From contig JAUXYI010000027.1 in assembly GCA_030694425.1 (NCBI GenBank), forward strand, positions 1 to 43,408: DNA of 43,408 bases, given 5' to 3'. Source of the stretch: Thermodesulfovibrionia bacterium. GTDB taxonomy: Bacteria; Nitrospirota; Thermodesulfovibrionia; UBA6902; BMS3Bbin08. A program made the position numbers and the translations under genes. Of this stretch, positions 3,487-42,834 are shown piece after piece (within the stretch, counting starts at the first letter, position 1; every line of letters begins with the position of its first letter). The notes below the pieces were generated by a model that saw nothing but the letters and a program-made list of their open reading frames with translations, made no database searches and was not told the DNA's origin.

Positions 3487-6400
3487 TTACCCCTTGAATC
3501 CTTTTGTTTCATTATATTCTTTTGCCTGATGCATAAATGCCTCAAGTTGAATTTCAGAACAGTTTGCCTCTGTTCCGTCATAAGCAATGTTGAAACACGG
3601 AATGCTTGCCTCCTGTTTAAGCCCTTTTAGCATAGCGCTTACAATAGTGCCGGGCATACAGCCAAAAGGCATGACATTAATTATACCTGAAGCGCCATTT
3701 TTTACATAGTCTATTGCTTTTCCAACGCTTAAAATTGCTTCACCTTCAAATGAATCATGTAAGTAAGGAGAAGCATTCCTGAGTATTTCTTCTATGGGCG
3801 GCTCTTTAAGGGTCTTAAGAAATCCTTCAAAAGGTCTTGATAATTTATGTTCAATCTTTTTTTGAACGAATCGCGTTGTTATTATACTAAGGATATCCTG
3901 TATGCTTTTTTTAGAGAAGATGTTATCCCGCCATATGGTTAAAGCCTTACGTAATCCCATCATATTTATGTAGTAAATCCATTCTTCAAAAGGTGCAAGC
4001 CATACTTCACCGCCAAGGGCTTCAACTTTTTTAATAATATTTTCATTTGAGAAGGCATTGTGCCTTACAAATATTTCTCCTATAATGCCGATAAGAGGTT
4101 TCTTTTCCCTGGACTTTGGTATGATAGCAAATGCCCTGCGGGTTTCATGCAGAAGTTCATCAAAAGCGCCATTTTGACTCTTAACCATCCTGCTCATTCT
4201 TAAGAGATATTCATTATATAAAGCATCTGTTTCTCCTGCGTTAATTTCATATGGTCTTATCTCATGGAGACATTTGATAAGGAGCTCTATTGCAATAATG
4301 CCTTTCCATGCCTCCTTCGTAAAATCATTCCCGATGATGCCTATTTCTTTATAAAAAGAGGCATCCTGATTAGGGGAAAATATCGGTATCTCTGGGAACC
4401 CTGCCTTGTCAAGCACAAGGCGGTGGAAAATATTATACTGTCCAAAACGGCATGGGCCTGAACCAGAAGGCATGAAGAAAACCGCCCTTTCAGGGTCAAA
4501 ATCACTTGACAAAGTCTTCTTCACCATATCGCCAGTAGTAATAAGGCATGGGTAACATTCTTTTCCTGATACAAAACGCCTGCCTACTTTTACGGTCTCA
4601 ATATCAGGGGCGTCCATTACCTCAGCGTCAAGCCCGCATTTTTCAAAAGCAGCAGCAAGTCCAAAGGCATGGTCTGACATCCTTGGAATATATACAGTAC
4701 GTCTTTGGAAACGAAGCGGATAGCGATTAGCAGTTGGTCTTTCACTAACAGCTATCTGCTTACTGCTAACTGTCTTTATGTTGCTGATGCTGTCAATAAA
4801 TGCCTCGCACCTTGTGATAATTCCGGCATCCGCGCTGTGCTCGTCAATCTCAATCTGAAGAAATGGTTTCTCAGCCATTGTTTCTTTAAAAAACCTGTGT
4901 ATAAAGGAATCAGGGCCGCAGGAAAAATTACCTATATAGAGCGCATAGAGTTTCGGGTAATTTCTGATTATCTCAGCTGCCTTTAAAATGTTTTGTCCGG
5001 ACCCCCAGTACATATTAGGCCATGTTTTTGTTATGTCAACAGTTTCTAATGGCAAATAGTCCATTGGAATGGACAAAACCCCGAGACTGGAAAGTTTTTT
5101 AGGGATTTCCATATTAACGCCGGGGTCAAAGGCATTGTACGAACGCCCGACTATAATAATTGTTTTTTCATTTGCTTTTTCTAATATTTCTTTCCCACGG
5201 CTTTTTATTGCTGAGATGAATTTCTTCTGCGATTTTTCAGCCTGCAATACCGCCTTTTTTATTACGTTCATTGAAATCCGGAACGGTTGGAACACCCTGT
5301 GTATTTCCTTTAAAAATTGTTTTTCCCCTGATTCAAAATTAATCACGGGACTGAGAACCTTTACCCCGCTTTCCTTGAAGGCAATGTTTGTGAAATATGG
5401 CATGGTTTGCACATACGGACAGGCAAGGCTTCGCATTGAACCATTATCAGCATTTAGATTTATAAAACTCGGGATTAAAACTGCCTCGACTCCCCTGTCA
5501 ATTAAATCTTTTATATGTCCATGAGCCACTTTATGAGGGAAACAGCTTTCCGCAAGAATAGTCTCTATTCCCTTGTTTATAATATTCCTATTTGTCTTAT
5601 CTGATATTTCTGCCTTGAAGCCGAGTTCCCATATAAGCGTGCTCCAGAAAGGCAAAAAATCATGGAAGAAAAATATCCTTGGTATGCCTATCTTTACCCT
5701 ATCAGAAAATCCCCCCTTGCCCCCCTTTAATAAAGGGGGGATGGGGGGATTTGAATATTCTCTATGAGATTTTGTAAGAAGTTCTTCCCTCTCCGCAAAT
5801 AAATCAGGAAGCTTTGTTGAATCAGTATATTTTTTCTTGCGCTTTACATCATATTTTTCGCATCTGCTGCCATAGAAAAGAGGGTCCTTCTCTCCCTCTA
5901 TCTGAACCCTGTTAATCTCGCAGATATTGTCACAGCCTTTGCACTCAAAAGACTTTATTTCATATCCTCTTTTAGAAAGGTCAAAACCTTTAAAGCGTGA
6001 CGAGTTACTAGTGACAAGTGACGGGTCAGTAATCCCCCCCTGCCCCCCTTTAGTAAAGGGTGGTAAGGGGGGATTTTCTGTGTTCTGTGCTCTGTGTTCT
6101 GCGTTCTGACTCTCCATGTGTTTCATCACAATGATTGCCATGCCTATGGCGCCGGTTACATCATGATGAGGAGGGACAATGATTTTTTTATTCAGGTACT
6201 CTTCAAATGCAGCAACAACTGCCTTATTAAAAGCTACACCGCCCTGAAAAAATATCTTTTTGCCAACTGGTTTGTCTCCGACCACCCTGTTAATGTAATT
6301 CTGAACTATTGAATATGAAAGCCCTGCAACAAGGTTTTCTTTGGACACTCCGCGCTGCTGTCTTGATAGAAGAGAATTTTCCATAAATACTGTGCATCTT

Positions 6401-7836
6401 TCTCCCAGACATGAAGGGCACTGTGATTTAAATGCTATGTCACTGAATTCTTCTTTTATTGATATATCCAGTTTCTCTGCCTGCTCTTCCAGAAACGAGC
6501 CTGTTCCTGCAGCGCACGCCTTGTTCATCTCAAAATCAACAATGATACTGTCTTTTATTGAAATGTATTTTGAATCTTGCCCCCCGATTTCAAAGATTGT
6601 ATCAACCTCAGGGTCTATCTCCACTGCTGCCCGCGCCTGAGCAGTGATTTCATTTTTTACGATATCTGCCCCAACAAAATCAGCAATCATATACCGTCCG
6701 GAACCGGTAGTGCCTACTCCAAGAATCTGAACCTTATCGCCAATTTCCTGTCCTATCTCGCCGAGTCCTTGTTTTACTGCCTCAATAGGTCTTCCGGCGG
6801 TCATCAGGTATCTTTTAGAAAGAAGTTTTCCTTCTTCATCAATAACAGCAAGGTTTGTACTTATTGACCCGATATCTATGCCGAGATAAGCATTAATTTT
6901 TTCAGAGTCCAGAGACCAGAACTCAGAACCCAGATTTGTTTTATCTGTAGTCTGTGCTCTGTAGTCTGTGGTCTGTGGTCTATGCCGGAGGGGTTTATGC
7001 CCTTTTTCTTCACTTCTCTGAGAGGAAATAAAGTCTTTAAGTTTTTCAATATCATAATGATTTTTAACTCCCTCTTCTATATATTTCAGGGCTGCCCCTA
7101 TTGCAGGCATCAATGCAAAGTGTTCAGGGATTAAAAGGTTTTCAAGTTGAAAAACTTCTTTAAATGCCCTCACAACGCCTTTATTCGCTGCCACTCCTCC
7201 CTGAAAACTCACAGGCAACGGCAAAACTATATTTTTAGCTATACTGCCCTTAAAATTTCTTGCAACAGCAAAACAAAGGCCTGCAACAATGTCATATACT
7301 GGAGTTGCTATCTGTTGGAGGTGAATCATATCGGATTTTGCAAAGACACTGCACCGCCCGGCAACACGAGGCGGATTTTTTGATTTTAATGTGCTCTCGC
7401 TAAACTCTTCTATACTGAGTCTCAATCTTTCAGCCTGCTGGTCAAGAAAAGAGCCTGTGCCTGCGGCACAGACTGAATTCATAGCAAATTCTTTTACCTT
7501 GCCGTCCTCAAGAATAATAAGCTTTGAATCTTCACCGCCCATTTCAATAATGGTCCTGATTTCGGGATAAAATCTTTTGGTTGAATAACTTTGAGCTATC
7601 ACCTCATTTACAGGCTCTATGCCAAACGCCTGAGCAATAATTTTTCCTCCGGAACCTGTAATGCTAAGTGAGGCTGACTGGTCTATCCCGATGAGTTGGG
7701 ACAGGAGTTCATATGCTACTGTTAGAGGCTTTCCTTTATGTCGGACATAGTTTGTTTCAAGGATACTGCCCTTTGCATCTAAAACTGCGATCTTTACACT
7801 GACAGAACCAGCATCAAGCCCTATAAATTTTTCCAT
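3487..7836 (-). CDS. Double acyl-CoA dehydratase activase (HgdC/BcrA-like) fused to DUF2229 and HgdB-like domains
   Basis: The 1449 residues hold two ASKHA ATPase modules (about 1-265 and 316-580). Each begins with an ATP-binding pattern (GLDAGSVSVKIAV; GIDIGSISTNLAV). Each keeps both cysteines that hold the interface [4Fe-4S] cluster in HgdC: CAAGTGSF near residues 119 and 442, then RCSVF and RCTVF. After a cysteine motif (CKGCDNIC) comes a DUF2229 region (GIPRIFFFHDFLPFW) and a C-terminal dehydratase-like part with CYPC, GSGPCRFG and GCMPG motifs. Known relatives use ATP to drive low-potential electron transfer to 2-hydroxyacyl-CoA dehydratases or benzoyl-CoA reductases; the substrate here is unknown. 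Repeat-derived stretches interrupt it at residues 275-310, 588-602, 695-710 and 1015-1036 without breaking the frame. It lies 12 nt downstream of the MTH1187-type gene. Confidence 0.88.
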   Translation of the reverse strand: MEKFIGLDAGSVSVKIAVLDAKGSILETNYVRHKGKPLTVAYELLSQLIGIDQSASLSITGSGGKIIAQAFGIEPVNEVIAQSYSTKRFYPEIRTIIEMGGEDSKLIILEDGKVKEFAMNSVCAAGTGSFLDQQAERLRLSIEEFSESTLKSKNPPRVAGRCSVFAKSDMIHLQQIATPVYDIVAGLCFAVARNFKGSIAKNIVLPLPVSFQGGVAANKGVVRAFKEVFQLENLLIPEHFALMPAIGAALKYIEEGVKNHYDIEKLKDFISSQRSEEKGHKPLRHRPQTTDYRAQTTDKTNLGSEFWSLDSEKINAYLGIDIGSISTNLAVIDEEGKLLSKRYLMTAGRPIEAVKQGLGEIGQEIGDKVQILGVGTTGSGRYMIADFVGADIVKNEITAQARAAVEIDPEVDTIFEIGGQDSKYISIKDSIIVDFEMNKACAAGTGSFLEEQAEKLDISIKEEFSDIAFKSQCPSCLGERCTVFMENSLLSRQQRGVSKENLVAGLSYSIVQNYINRVVGDKPVGKKIFFQGGVAFNKAVVAAFEEYLNKKIIVPPHHDVTGAIGMAIIVMKHMESQNAEHRAQNTENPPLPPFTKGGQGGITDPSLVTSNSSRFKGFDLSKRGYEIKSFECKGCDNICEINRVQIEGEKDPLFYGSRCEKYDVKRKKKYTDSTKLPDLFAEREELLTKSHREYSNPPIPPLLKGGKGGFSDRVKIGIPRIFFFHDFLPFWSTLIWELGFKAEISDKTNRNIINKGIETILAESCFPHKVAHGHIKDLIDRGVEAVLIPSFINLNADNGSMRSLACPYVQTMPYFTNIAFKESGVKVLSPVINFESGEKQFLKEIHRVFQPFRISMNVIKKAVLQAEKSQKKFISAIKSRGKEILEKANEKTIIIVGRSYNAFDPGVNMEIPKKLSSLGVLSIPMDYLPLETVDITKTWPNMYWGSGQNILKAAEIIRNYPKLYALYIGNFSCGPDSFIHRFFKETMAEKPFLQIEIDEHSADAGIITRCEAFIDSISNIKTVSSKQIAVSERPTANRYPLRFQRRTVYIPRMSDHAFGLAAAFEKCGLDAEVMDAPDIETVKVGRRFVSGKECYPCLITTGDMVKKTLSSDFDPERAVFFMPSGSGPCRFGQYNIFHRLVLDKAGFPEIPIFSPNQDASFYKEIGIIGNDFTKEAWKGIIAIELLIKCLHEIRPYEINAGETDALYNEYLLRMSRMVKSQNGAFDELLHETRRAFAIIPKSREKKPLIGIIGEIFVRHNAFSNENIIKKVEALGGEVWLAPFEEWIYYINMMGLRKALTIWRDNIFSKKSIQDILSIITTRFVQKKIEHKLSRPFEGFLKTLKEPPIEEILRNASPYLHDSFEGEAILSVGKAIDYVKNGASGIINVMPFGCMPGTIVSAMLKGLKQEASIPCFNIAYDGTEANCSEIQLEAFMHQAKEYNETKGFKG
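5708..5752. repeat. PPxPPxxKGG palindrome inside the activase gene (copy 1)
   Basis: A near-perfect palindrome of C-runs, a tttaataaa centre and G-runs. Read leftward it encodes NPPIPPLLKGGKGG (residues about 695-710), between the cysteine motif and the DUF2229 domain. Confidence 0.9.
6031..6075. repeat. PPxPPxxKGG palindrome inside the activase gene (copy 2)
   Basis: The same family, encoding NPPLPPFTKGGQGG (residues about 588-602). It is flanked by two word-like repeats, one encoding QNAEHRAQNTE and one made of agtgacgagttactagtgac-type units. Confidence 0.9.
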
Positions 7837-31264: not shown

Positions 31265-32197
31265 TTAAATTTTTGAATACATTTCCTCTGCATTCATTGA
31301 ACTTCTTGCCATCGGAGATGAAGCAACAGCCTTAAATCCCATTTCAAGCGCTTTGATTTTATAATGCTCAAAAACCTCGGGTCTTATGTAATCAACCACG
31401 GGAATATTTCCCTTTCGCGGTCTCAGGTATTGCCCTATTGTCAAAAAATCACATCCTGCATCTCTCAGGTCTCTCAAAACTGATAAAACCTCTGCGTCTT
31501 TTTCGCCAAACCCTAACATGATACCTGATTTAGTCTTTATATGGGGATAAAGTATCTTAGCCGAATGAAGTATATTTATTGATGTCAGATAATCAGCCTT
31601 TGGTCTTACAGTTGCATAAAGTCTCGGGATGGTTTCAACATTATGGTTGAATACATCTGGAGATGCATTGAGAACGGTTCTCAGCGCCTCTAAATCTCCC
31701 TTAAAATCAGGAGTTAGAACTTCAATTTTAATCTTTTCACCTGATAATCCCCCCATCCCCCCTTTAGTAAAGGGGGGTAAGGGGGGATTATTTTCATTGT
31801 TCTTTATGTTGCTGTGTAACATGTTTGTTTCATTTTTGAGTTTTAGAGCCTGTATTGTTTTTGCAAAATGCCCTGCCCCTCCGTCAGGCAAATCATCCCT
31901 TGTTACTGAAGTAATAACAACAAACTTCAAACCAAGCGTTGAAGCTGCCTCCGCAATCCTCTCCGGTTCATCAGGGTCAAGCGGTAAAGGGCTGTTTGAT
32001 TCAACAGCGCAAAAAGAGCAGTTTCTTGTACATCTGTCGCCGAGTATCATAAAAGTTGTTGTGCCGCTTGAAAAACATTTCCCCTGATTAGGGCACTTCG
32101 CCTCTTCGCAAACAGTAGATACCCTGTAATGCCTCAGGATTTTTTTGGTCTGGTGTGTACCGGATAACTGTACTTTTAACCATTCAGGATGACGCAT
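31265..32197 (-). CDS. lipA: Lipoyl synthase
   Basis: This radical SAM enzyme inserts two sulfurs into octanoyl groups. The auxiliary-cluster motif CEEAKCPNQGKC and the radical-SAM motif CTRNCSFC are both present, followed by VVITSVTRDDLPDGGAGHF and the closing ARSSMNAEEMY with the conserved RSS. Residues about 122-152 hold an insert of about 30 residues (word-like part, then NNPPLPPFTKGGMGG) just before IKIEVLTPDF, where family members have a short loop. The start overlaps bioD by 14 nt, so lipA and bioD are co-transcribed. Confidence 0.95.
   Translation of the reverse strand: MRHPEWLKVQLSGTHQTKKILRHYRVSTVCEEAKCPNQGKCFSSGTTTFMILGDRCTRNCSFCAVESNSPLPLDPDEPERIAEAASTLGLKFVVITSVTRDDLPDGGAGHFAKTIQALKLKNETNMLHSNIKNNENNPPLPPFTKGGMGGLSGEKIKIEVLTPDFKGDLEALRTVLNASPDVFNHNVETIPRLYATVRPKADYLTSINILHSAKILYPHIKTKSGIMLGFGEKDAEVLSVLRDLRDAGCDFLTIGQYLRPRKGNIPVVDYIRPEVFEHYKIKALEMGFKAVASSPMARSSMNAEEMYSKI
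31746..31789. repeat. PPxPPxxKGG palindrome inside lipA
   Basis: A 44-bp palindrome with a tttagtaaa centre. Leftward it encodes NPPLPPFTKGGMGG; read rightward the same DNA gives NPPIPPLVKGGKGG, so either orientation is an open frame. Confidence 0.92.
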
Positions 32198-33839: not shown

Positions 33840-35153
33840 TTAAATTTTGAACTTATCCAGCCTTTCTAAAACCAAGCCTATATCCTTATCTGTATGCGCT
33901 GCAGTAACTGAAAATCTTATCCTGCACTTTTCTTCAGGCACTGTTGGCGGTCTTATTGCAGGGGCAAATATTTTATTCTTATAAAGATAGTTCCCCATTT
34001 TTAAGGCGCTCTTTACATCACCCGCCAAAATAGGGATTATCGGCGTTTCTGAATTTAATGTATCGTAGCCGAGATTTTTAAGACCCTGATAAAGTTTTAC
34101 TCTATTGGCCCATAATTTTTTTCTCAAGCTATCTGACTCGGAATTGACTATATCTATTGCCTTTATGCATGCCTCTGCTATCGCAGGCGGAAGCGATGTT
34201 GAATAAATAAAACTCCTTGCCATGTTTATCAGAAAATCTATTAAATCTTTTGAACCAGCCGCAAAACCCCCGAAACATCCAAATGCCTTGCTCAGTGTCC
34301 CCATCTGTATTATGCCCTGAGCTGAGCTTGCCGAAGCTTTAATGTCAAAATGCTCAAGCCCTCCCCTGCCTGTTCTCCCGAGAACACCTGTTCCATGTGC
34401 ATCATCAATCATGAGCATCGCACCATATTTCTTACTAAGAAAGACTATGTTTTTTAGCGGCGCTATGTCTCCATCCATGCTGAATATAGTGTCTGTGATT
34501 ATCAGTTTTTTAGCAGAAGATTTTGCCAAACAATCCCCCCCTCCCCCCTTTACTAAAGGGGGGTAAGGGGGGATTGTTTTCCTTGTCTTTTGTGCTTCTA
34601 CATGACATGTTTGTTTTAGGAGTTTCTCCAAATGATCCATGTCCCTGTGTCTGAAAATTTTTACTTTTGCCCTTGAAAGTTTTATGCCGTCTATAATGCT
34701 TGCATGGTTAAGTTCATCGCTGAAAATAGTGTCTTCATCTCCAACAAGTGCAGGTATAATTCCAGTGTTTGCAGAATAGCCTGTATTAAATACCAGCGCT
34801 GCTTCAGTTCCTTTAAATCTTGCTATTTTCTCTTCAAGCTTTTTGTGAGGGATATAAGAGCCGCTTAAAAACCTTGATGCGCCTGAACCAAACCCGTATT
34901 TCCCGAGAGCCTTTGCAGCAGCTTCTGCAATTCTATGGTCTTTTGATAATCCAAGATAATCGTTTGAAGAAAAATTAATATACCTTTTCCCGTTGATTGT
35001 AATTCTTGACCCGATAGATGACTCAATATATGTGAGTTTTCTTACAAGGCTATTTTTTTTAAGCTCTCTCAGCTTTTCAGCAAAACGCTTATTTTCTTTG
35101 AGTCTGTGTTCTGTGTTCTGTGTTCTGTGTTCTGCTTTTTTAAACCCCTTCAT
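33840..35153 (-). CDS. bioF: 8-amino-7-oxononanoate synthase
   Basis: This PLP enzyme joins pimeloyl-CoA (or -ACP) and alanine. Motifs: RYINFSSNDYLGLSKDHRI, YGFGSGASRFLSGSYIPHKKLE, SDELNHASIIDG, FSMDGDIAPL, IDDAHGTGVLG and the PLP lysine in MGTLSKAFGCFGG. The 437 residues exceed the usual 385-390 because of two repeat-derived parts: the N-terminal AEHRTQNTEHRL and a loop insert at about 178-213 containing IPPYPPLVKGGGG, just before KKLIITDTIFSMDGD. The start overlaps the queE end by 14 nt. The adjacent AlaC-type enzyme could supply alanine. Confidence 0.94.
   Translation of the reverse strand: MKGFKKAEHRTQNTEHRLKENKRFAEKLRELKKNSLVRKLTYIESSIGSRITINGKRYINFSSNDYLGLSKDHRIAEAAAKALGKYGFGSGASRFLSGSYIPHKKLEEKIARFKGTEAALVFNTGYSANTGIIPALVGDEDTIFSDELNHASIIDGIKLSRAKVKIFRHRDMDHLEKLLKQTCHVEAQKTRKTIPPYPPLVKGGGGDCLAKSSAKKLIITDTIFSMDGDIAPLKNIVFLSKKYGAMLMIDDAHGTGVLGRTGRGGLEHFDIKASASSAQGIIQMGTLSKAFGCFGGFAAGSKDLIDFLINMARSFIYSTSLPPAIAEACIKAIDIVNSESDSLRKKLWANRVKLYQGLKNLGYDTLNSETPIIPILAGDVKSALKMGNYLYKNKIFAPAIRPPTVPEEKCRIRFSVTAAHTDKDIGLVLERLDKFKI
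34532..34575. repeat. PPxPPxxKGG palindrome inside bioF
   Basis: The same 44-bp palindrome family, with a tttactaaa centre, encoding IPPYPPLVKGGGG leftward. It is flanked by additional non-family sequence (HVEAQKTRKT). Confidence 0.92.
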
Positions 35154-38098: not shown

Positions 38099-38161
38099 TG
38101 TCATTCCCGCTTGTCGGGAATCTTTCTTATAAAGAAGGATTGCGGACAAGCCGCAATGACA
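38099..38161. repeat. GTCATT-type dispersed element
   Basis: tgtcattcccgcttgtcggg to gcggacaagccgcaatgaca. Confidence 0.85.
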
Positions 38162-41140: not shown

Positions 41141-41170
41141 TAAAAAGTGTAAGTGTCAGTGATTAGTGTC

Positions 41171-41262
41171 TGTCATTGCGAGCTGAAGGCGAAGCAATCT
41201 CGTCTTTTGGGAGTGCTCTAAACGAATGAGATTGCTTCGGGACTTCATCCCTCGCAATGACA
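41171..41262. repeat. 92-bp GTCATT-type element, twin of the copy inside pmbA
   Basis: It begins tgtcattgcgagctgaaggc and ends cctcgcaatgaca. It differs from the copy at 41622-41713 at about seven positions and has the same length. Confidence 0.9.
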
Positions 41263-41352
41263 AGTTGGGGGATTCAGAAATAAAACAGTGTCAGTTAACA
41301 GTCTCAGTATAAATAAAAAACTGACACTGAACACTGTTCACTGAATACGGTT

Positions 41353-42834
41353 TCACGCGCTTATATCCATTTCTCCTATCAAAAGACTCGGGGAGCCGAT
41401 TTTGCCATAAAATTTCAAATCGCTGCCTACCCTCTCTATTCTTTTGAATAATTCAAGCACATTGCCTGACATAACAGCCTCTTTAATCGGATATTTAATT
41501 TCTCCATTTTCTATCCATAGGCCTGAAATACCTACGGAGAAATCTCCAGAAATAGGATTAGCAGTATGCACGCCCATCGCTTCAAGGACTAAGATTCCTT
41601 TGGACACGGATTTTACCAATCTGTCATTGCGAGCCGAAGGTGAAGCAATCCCGTCTTTTGGGACTGCTCCAAACGAATAAGATTGCTTCGGGACTTCGTC
41701 CCTCGCAATGACAAGCGAGGGGGGCTTTGGTTCTATATATAAATTCGTTACACCCACACCGGGCAGGGTTTTAAAGCCTCCTCTGACAGCATTTCCTGTA
41801 GAGACAGTTCCTTCTTTCTTTGCGGTATAAGTATTATGAATAAAACCTGTGAGAGCGCCTTTAGAGACAATCATTTTTTTTGAAGTTGGGACTCCTTCAT
41901 CATCAACAGGCTTTGTGCCGATTCTCCATGGCATAAGTCCGTCATCAAAAATATTTACGATAGGGCTTATTATATTTTTTCCGATTTTATTAGCAAGAAA
42001 TGACCTCTTCTTCTGTACAGCCTCTGCAGATAATGATGAACTGAAAATGCCAAGAAAATCTGATGCAACTGACGAATCAAGTATAACAGGGATTCTAACA
42101 GAAATAATCTTTCTTGAACCAAGCAAATCAATTGCTTTTTTTGATGCTGCTTCAGCAATTGAACCAAAATCTATATCACTCAACCTCCTGCTAACCGCAA
42201 AATCCCAGCCGGTCTGCATATCGTGCCCATCGTCTGCAAGTGTAGTTACAGAAGCAGTAATGGAACTGCTATCATAAGAAACTTTTATACCTTTTGAGCT
42301 AAAGATTGTGGTGCTGCCTGATGCAAGGGCAACCTCCGCCTTTCTTACTTTCTTAATCCTTGAATCAAAATCAAGCGCTGTCTTTTCAAGAAACAAGGCA
42401 TTGTTAATGACATCGTTTTCTTTCATGCTTTCAATTTTTTCATCAAAAACCAATGCCTCTGAGGAAGCAACCCCCACCAGCCCCCCTTTAACCCCTCTGT
42501 ATCCCCCCTTAGTAAGGGGGGAATTAAAGGGGGGTAAACTGGGGATGTCAATATATTTATCTTCTGCCGTCCATTTAGCGCCCTCAACAGCCTCTCTTAC
42601 CATATCTTCAAGTCCCGAACTCTCGGGATTTGTGGTAAAAGAAAATCCCAGCCTATGATTTTTAATAACCCTTAAGGATATTCCAAAATCTTTGGCTGAA
42701 TTTAATGCCTCCACGCCATTATTTTTTACCTCCACAGAAAATCTCTTTGCAGTTTTAATAAAAACTTCAGCTTCATCGCATCCCTTGCTAATAGCATCTT
42801 TAACAGCATCGGCGGCTAATAAGGTTACATCCAT
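41353..42834 (-). CDS. pmbA: TldD/PmbA-family metalloprotease component (PmbA/TldE type)
   Basis: The family pattern is clear: NNGVEALNSAKDFGISLRVI, DDEGVPTSKKMIVSKGALTGFIHNTYTAKKEG, RGGFKTLPGVGVTNLYIEP, and NPISGDFSVGISGLWIENGEI near the C-terminus. The TldD zinc motif HExxxH is absent, so it is the PmbA/TldE-like subunit; no tldD is seen in the window. TldD/E process small peptides and protein partners such as microcin B17 precursor and CcdA. The 493 residues include two repeat-derived inserts: about 95-118 (PSLPPFNSPLTKGG, C/G-run palindrome) and about 374-404 (GTCATT-type element). It is convergent with the PGPGW gene. Confidence 0.92.
   Translation of the reverse strand: MDVTLLAADAVKDAISKGCDEAEVFIKTAKRFSVEVKNNGVEALNSAKDFGISLRVIKNHRLGFSFTTNPESSGLEDMVREAVEGAKWTAEDKYIDIPSLPPFNSPLTKGGYRGVKGGLVGVASSEALVFDEKIESMKENDVINNALFLEKTALDFDSRIKKVRKAEVALASGSTTIFSSKGIKVSYDSSSITASVTTLADDGHDMQTGWDFAVSRRLSDIDFGSIAEAASKKAIDLLGSRKIISVRIPVILDSSVASDFLGIFSSSLSAEAVQKKRSFLANKIGKNIISPIVNIFDDGLMPWRIGTKPVDDEGVPTSKKMIVSKGALTGFIHNTYTAKKEGTVSTGNAVRGGFKTLPGVGVTNLYIEPKPPSLVIARDEVPKQSYSFGAVPKDGIASPSARNDRLVKSVSKGILVLEAMGVHTANPISGDFSVGISGLWIENGEIKYPIKEAVMSGNVLELFKRIERVGSDLKFYGKIGSPSLLIGEMDISA
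41622..41713. repeat. 92-bp GTCATT-type element inserted in frame in pmbA
   Basis: It encodes VIARDEVPKQSYSFGAVPKD and IASPSARNDR between NLYIEP and the VSKGILVLEAMGV helix, where family members have a short loop. It is open through its whole length in the pmbA frame. Confidence 0.92.
42481..42534. repeat. Nested C-run/G-run palindrome inside pmbA
   Basis: CCCCCCTTTAA (42481-42491) and TTAAAGGGGGG (42524-42534) enclose a ccccccttagtaagggggg hairpin. It encodes FNSPLTKGGYRGVKGG, a variant of the PPxPPxxKGG family. Confidence 0.85.

Follow-up and report, generated by a model that had tools for sequence, protein, structure and literature searches.

Palindromic inserts in the window

The window, a stretch of 43,408 nt, is one contig of genome G000 (2.42 Mb, 101 contigs) and carries copies of a short palindrome inside four genes; the ORFs and inserts of this paragraph and the heptad repeat at 6074–6108 are on the minus strand. 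In lipA (lipoyl synthase; 31265–32197, 310 aa), the palindrome spans 31746–31789 (44 bp) and reads NPPLPPFTKGGMGGL. It sits within a larger insert of approximately 93 bp or 31 aa (31738–31830, ends approximate) that has the form (TGAAA)CAAACATG...palindrome...TCAGG(TGAAA) and is missing from the lipA genes of relatives. The bioF ORF (33840–35153, 437 aa) holds a 44-bp copy at 34532–34575, here within a long form at 34521–34616 that amounts to a net insert of 25–28 aa compared with relatives. Two copies lie in a 2-hydroxyacyl-CoA-dehydratase-activase-like ORF (3487–7836, 1449 aa), in linkers that are hypervariable across all relatives: one at 5708–5751 (44 bp), which reads NPPIPPLLKGGKGGF and is oriented opposite to the lipA copy, and one at 6031–6075, which reads NPPLPPFTKGGQGGI. 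A pmbA/tldD-like ORF (41353–42834, 493 aa) contains an insert of 21 aa (42478–42540, ends approximate) built on a nested, variant palindrome with the core CCCCCTTAGTAAGGGGG at 42504–42520.

The preliminary description of this DNA had reported four copies and the nested pmbA variant, all in frame. We found each of them, and 5/5 are in frame within ORFs of 1449, 310, 437 and 493 aa. It had also stated that the copies encode almost the same peptide; a common Pro/Gly peptide is indeed present, but the bioF copy is read one frame over compared with that in lipA, as (T)IPPYPPLVKGGGGD. Because the palindromes in lipA and bioF are part of a unit of ~95–100 bp, the inserts in these two enzymes comprise 31 aa and 25–28 aa, and not the 15 aa of the palindrome.

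Other repeats share these genes. A second, unrelated palindromic repeat of the GTCATTGCGAGG type is found in frame in pmbA at 41620–41722, where it encodes the peptide PSLVIARDEVPKQSYSFGAVPKDGIASPSARND and relatives do without it; copies of this type are also found nearby in intergenic DNA (41169–41271 and 38132–38161). Heptad tandem repeats (GAACACA-like; peptide QNTEHRTQNTE) occur at 6074–6108, 35100–35134 and other G000 loci. The first of these, which reads AEHRAQNTE, abuts the 6031 palindrome, and heptad repeats directly adjoin the palindrome at 6/51 sites, compared with ~0.011 expected per site.

Structure, copy number and host genes of the repeat

The basic unit is AAT-C6-NNN-C6-TTTNNNAAA-G6-NN-G6-ATT, 44 nt in total, and a 45-nt version occurs beside it. 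The unit had been called a near-perfect palindrome: it is self-complementary, but its arms are unequal: the linker between C6 blocks is usually 2 nt long in one arm and 3 nt long in the other. Folding of the 44-mer yields a hairpin of −32.7 kcal/mol (z −3.1). The whole element is self-complementary, with terminal inverted repeats and without a protein of its own, as expected of a MITE. The main frame reads NPP(S/L)PPF(S/T)KGGMGGF in one orientation and NPPIPPLxKGGxGGF in the other, and reading one frame over gives IPPxPPLxKGGxGD. Both orientations can be read through, as first proposed, but not in every frame: of the six, typically 3–4 are open in an exact full-length copy, and genic copies use only the open ones. 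Reading of the sequence shows that when both arms carry a TNA linker, as in the symmetric 45-nt form, the main frame can acquire TAA or TGA; linkers of unequal length avoid this.

Larger forms contain the palindrome as one part. The long form (~95–100 bp) starts at approximately CAAACATG and ends at approximately TCAGG; it is common to lipA and bioF and recurs at other G000 loci, in G009 and partly in G006, two genomes from a different family within the same order. Its ends are flanked on both sides by TGAAA-like sequence in lipA and imperfectly at other loci, and we found no clear target-site duplication at the insert ends. In genus g9, three hairpins make up a composite form of ~107 bp, which has dozens of copies and folds into a single long palindrome; within genes it keeps the frame and is used in both orientations. 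We also observed nested palindromes at three loci (L102, L133 and L135), in which a AGGTCATGACC-type hairpin within one arm encodes LRVMTF and the frame is still intact.

We counted the core CCCCTTTANTAAAGGGG across G000 and found 74 matches with ≤2 mismatches and 43 with ≤1 mismatch, compared with 2 and 1, respectively, in the reversed control. This confirms that the palindrome is real and that its copy number lies far beyond that first described. ORFs of at least 212 aa hold 37/43 of the near-perfect cores, a share that matches the window's coding density of 0.868. Exact full-length copies in three genomes lie within ORFs in 62/71 cases (~87%; G000, 21/21; G285, 23/25; G322, 18/25), as do 24/42 copies of the 107-bp form. 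Selection against genic insertions would be expected to leave an intergenic excess; such an excess is seen for the 107-bp form and is absent for the 44-bp form in G000 and G285, which counts against the mobile-repeat reading proposed below.

All copies in ORFs preserve the frame and keep the reading open. Their hosts are mostly conserved Pfam families, including PriA, RecO, the CysS DALR domain, BamA-type POTRA, a V-type ATPase subunit, NuoG-like proteins, KDO transferase, cytidylyltransferase, ferrochelatase, MiaB-like proteins, CobT, CobB, CbiB, ApbE, CorA, ETF alpha and YjeF, among others. These genes have no common theme, and copies lie in either orientation and anywhere along the gene. 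ORFs flanking the intergenic copies mostly look separate, so most of these copies do not appear to represent disrupted genes, although one neighbour at L099 may be truncated. Among the ORFs neighbouring intergenic copies, we noticed no transposase and, by eye, no autonomous relative with the same ends.

The repeat is distributed patchily. Cores range from 0 to 66 per genome within the same class, and exact full-length copies are present in 47/296 genomes of the phylum (0–103 each), with 0 in the reversed control throughout. Named MAGs with exact copies include Nitrospirae/Thermodesulfovibrionia, Chloroflexi, Scalindua, Methylomirabilis and Desulfonema-like bacteria; several of these copies are intergenic and some are genic, for example in a lipoate ligase. 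In a Desulfonema-like MAG (L058), a stretch of 8 kb has nine related palindrome cores, of which several lie in ORFs, including a phage Rha/Bro-N-type gene.

Most of these genomes are MAGs, and the palindromes could in principle be artefacts of assembly or binning, or arise independently by local slippage. We consider this extremely unlikely, as dozens of unrelated genes, in assemblies made independently, contain one and the same sequence and have their frames intact, the reversed control is near zero, and slippage is unable to yield one sequence at many loci. Around position 80012 of contig C79, G031 has an open frame of 24,059 aa, which is either an unusually long gene or an artefact.

Empty sites, re-used loops and probable tolerance

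Alignment with relatives, which the preliminary description had suggested, shows clean, short loops in LipA, BioF and PmbA. At the point where G000 carries 31 additional residues, LipA of relatives has ...KLKKERMQVEVLTPDF or a similar sequence; 25–28 residues are missing from relatives of BioF and 21 from those of PmbA. PDB alignments of LipA and BioF are interrupted at the same points as the inserts. One relative's lipA (G037:C161:4413-4775) has an in-frame TAG.

Other loops are occupied more than once. The activase linkers vary across every relative, and in G029 the same linker contains a related insert of its own, SPPLNSPHSKGGYR. Genus g9 provides a further case: two cobyric acid synthase sites that have the palindrome in G031 are occupied by different palindromes or by tandem repeats in G034, G008, G019 and G012, and one of the two is also filled in G000. 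Three genomes (G000, G031 and G322) have a filled ferrochelatase loop. Equally long, unrelated loops in relatives had been named beforehand as evidence against insertion. This applies only in part: relatives do have other sequence, often other repeats, at the activase linkers and in cobyric acid synthase, but short loops in LipA, BioF and PmbA. The filling of the cobyric acid synthase and ferrochelatase loops across genomes indicates re-use, and judged from these alignments, the different sequences in the activase and cobyric acid synthase loops of relatives point to permissive loops that are filled again, which does not run counter to insertion.

We propose that the palindrome is probably a mobile repeat, non-autonomous and self-complementary, that inserts both within genes and in intergenic DNA; in the simplest reading it is selfish. 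Units of 44–45 bp, together with the ~95–100-bp and ~107-bp composite forms, would have multiplied in several bacterial lineages by transposition in trans, through some enzyme acting on the hairpin. Runs of C and G provide Pro and Gly codons in several frames whichever way round the element lies, and linkers of unequal length (2 nt and 3 nt) hold reading frames free of stops. A stop-free repeat coding for Pro and Gly would give a flexible, soluble peptide of 15–37 residues if it landed in a surface loop, and would hence be tolerated there. Purifying selection would purge copies that break the frame, bear stops or disrupt the protein core, and permissive loops would be filled repeatedly, by the palindrome and by other small repeats. 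Insertion with respect to relatives, the kept frames, the use of both orientations, the multi-copy forms particular to certain lineages and the shared loops are seen directly; the model further presumes that the peptide is translated and is nearly neutral for the enzyme; from the sequences in hand, translation and tolerance are most likely.

The insert might instead never stay in the enzyme, being removed or skipped by RNA splicing, by translational bypassing as in the byps of Magnusiomyces or by protein splicing. The message would contain a strong hairpin, the enzymes concerned are conserved and in many cases essential, and byp elements provide a known precedent (cited in PMC6649704). However, neither RNA removal nor bypassing needs an intact, open frame, yet every genic copy has one, which argues strongly against both as a general rule. 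We saw no intein motif or splice signal in these peptides of 15–37 aa, although, judged by sequence, removal at the protein level is conceivable. Overall, we regard removal or skipping as very improbable.

Two inserts shared at the same site conflict with the simplest form of tolerance. In an AMP-binding enzyme, the element is identical between G000 and G009 at 44/45 nt, compared with 255/330 nt in the flanks; in BioA, G285 and G322 agree at 43/45 nt of the element and at 173/210 nt of the flanks. Fisher's test yields P values of 0.0005 and 0.02, respectively, for all nucleotides and of 0.03 and 0.05 for third positions (two chosen cases, uncorrected for that choice). At the loci concerned (L127 with L149, and L296 with L321), conservation exceeds that of the flanking codons. 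This excess is not predicted by plain neutral tolerance; in these two chosen cases it may reflect selection, gene conversion, gene transfer or a second insertion at the identical base.

Such conservation, together with the high integrity of the palindrome in many copies, would be expected if the hairpin were kept for a function (as an mRNA attenuator or stabilizer, or as a DNA structure) or continually renewed by gene conversion, and not merely tolerated. We think this quite unlikely: the hosts share no theme, orientation and position within the gene are free, relatives manage without the element, and the shared sites, which number only two, may be fresh insertions or products of gene transfer. 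It is also unlikely, in our estimation, that the element is directed to coding loops, or preserved there, as part of a system that diversifies loops recurrently, in which repeat families are swapped at permissive sites and the DNA palindrome is kept more strictly than the surrounding gene.

If the repeat is a tolerated mobile element, a hairpin of ~44 bases has entered dozens of conserved enzymes of this uncultured bacterium and its relatives, each gaining a Pro/Gly-rich loop, and mobile DNA can reshape many proteins while their genes stay readable. The copies amount to many natural insertion experiments in conserved enzymes such as LipA, BioF, PriA, CysS and ferrochelatase; they offer a map of loops that tolerate inserts and a test case for the origin of new protein segments from mobile DNA, and they warn annotators that such loops derive from repeats.

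A possible mobilizer and relation to known elements

A candidate mobilizer is suggested by Y1 transposases. Across 61 genomes, the number of Y1_Tnp domains correlates with the copy number of the palindrome (rho 0.62, P 1e-7, kinship ignored), and within the order rho is 0.73 (kinship ignored). The control family DDE_Tnp_1 yields a rho of 0.06, which speaks against general transposase load as the source of the correlation. One possibility is that RAYT (Y1) transposases mobilize the palindrome as a REP element. Like REP/RAYT systems (PMC3733652), it is short, palindromic and present in high copy number in genomes rich in Y1 transposases, and REPs inside genes are on record (PMC3733652). However, the palindrome lay beside Y1 genes at 0/20 loci examined, which speaks against RAYT genes as its immediate source, and many Y1 loci have GGGGTCAGGTC-type ends of their own. 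No constant tetranucleotide such as the GTAG/CGTC tag was visible by eye beside the palindrome in the 69 flanks listed, and its copies are mostly intragenic, unlike the predominantly intergenic REPs. We therefore consider identity with REPs unlikely, and treat the link between Y1 and copy number as a lead, not a finding. The loci inspected, L196–L215, contain RAYT-like Y1 genes, many of them bordered by inverted ends of the GGGGTCAGGTC type together with short tandem repeats.

Cyanobacterial small dispersed repeats, from Elhai et al. 2008, are reportedly very small, mobile and nesting, and SDR5 is said to insert inside HIP1. Compared by description, size and nesting are alike, and sequence and insertion rule differ. 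Correia, ERIC and Yersinia MITEs (PMC2229807) are likewise non-autonomous inverted-repeat elements that make in-frame fusions, but they measure 107–168 bp, are mostly intergenic and usually have target-site duplications. The byps of Magnusiomyces mitochondria are also palindromic elements that interrupt coding sequence; byps are skipped in translation (cited in PMC6649704), whereas the genic copies in our genomes are all open and in frame. In the literature searched, which lay mostly outside subscription journals, we found no paper on the peptide itself and no similar report for this clade.

The closest match is the Rickettsia palindromic element (RPE). A resemblance had been noted from the window, and in-frame palindromic inserts in both orientations hold genome-wide and in other families. 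Judged by behaviour and description, the repeat works like RPEs (PMC2229807, PMC10969869): in both, palindromes lie in frame in many unrelated conserved genes, encode a shared peptide and use open frames. For RPEs, an insert-bearing Gmk is both translated and active (PMC2229807, PMC10969869). In-frame palindromes spread through conserved proteins have so far come chiefly from Rickettsia, an intracellular lineage. RPEs measure 105–150 bp, compared with a main unit of 44–45 bp and longer forms of 95–107 bp here; the peptide described here is Pro/Gly-rich, and its carriers are MAGs in other phyla. Nearly half of the RPEs of R. conorii are genic, compared with ~87% of exact copies here, and several repeat families occupy the same loops here. 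The unit described here is far shorter, is present in tens of genes per genome and is scattered patchily across the phylum as well as in MAGs outside it, and sister species refill the same protein loops with different repeats. The palindrome is a real and widespread protein-coding repeat, with a shorter unit, a different peptide, hosts in other phyla and a higher genic share than the RPE.
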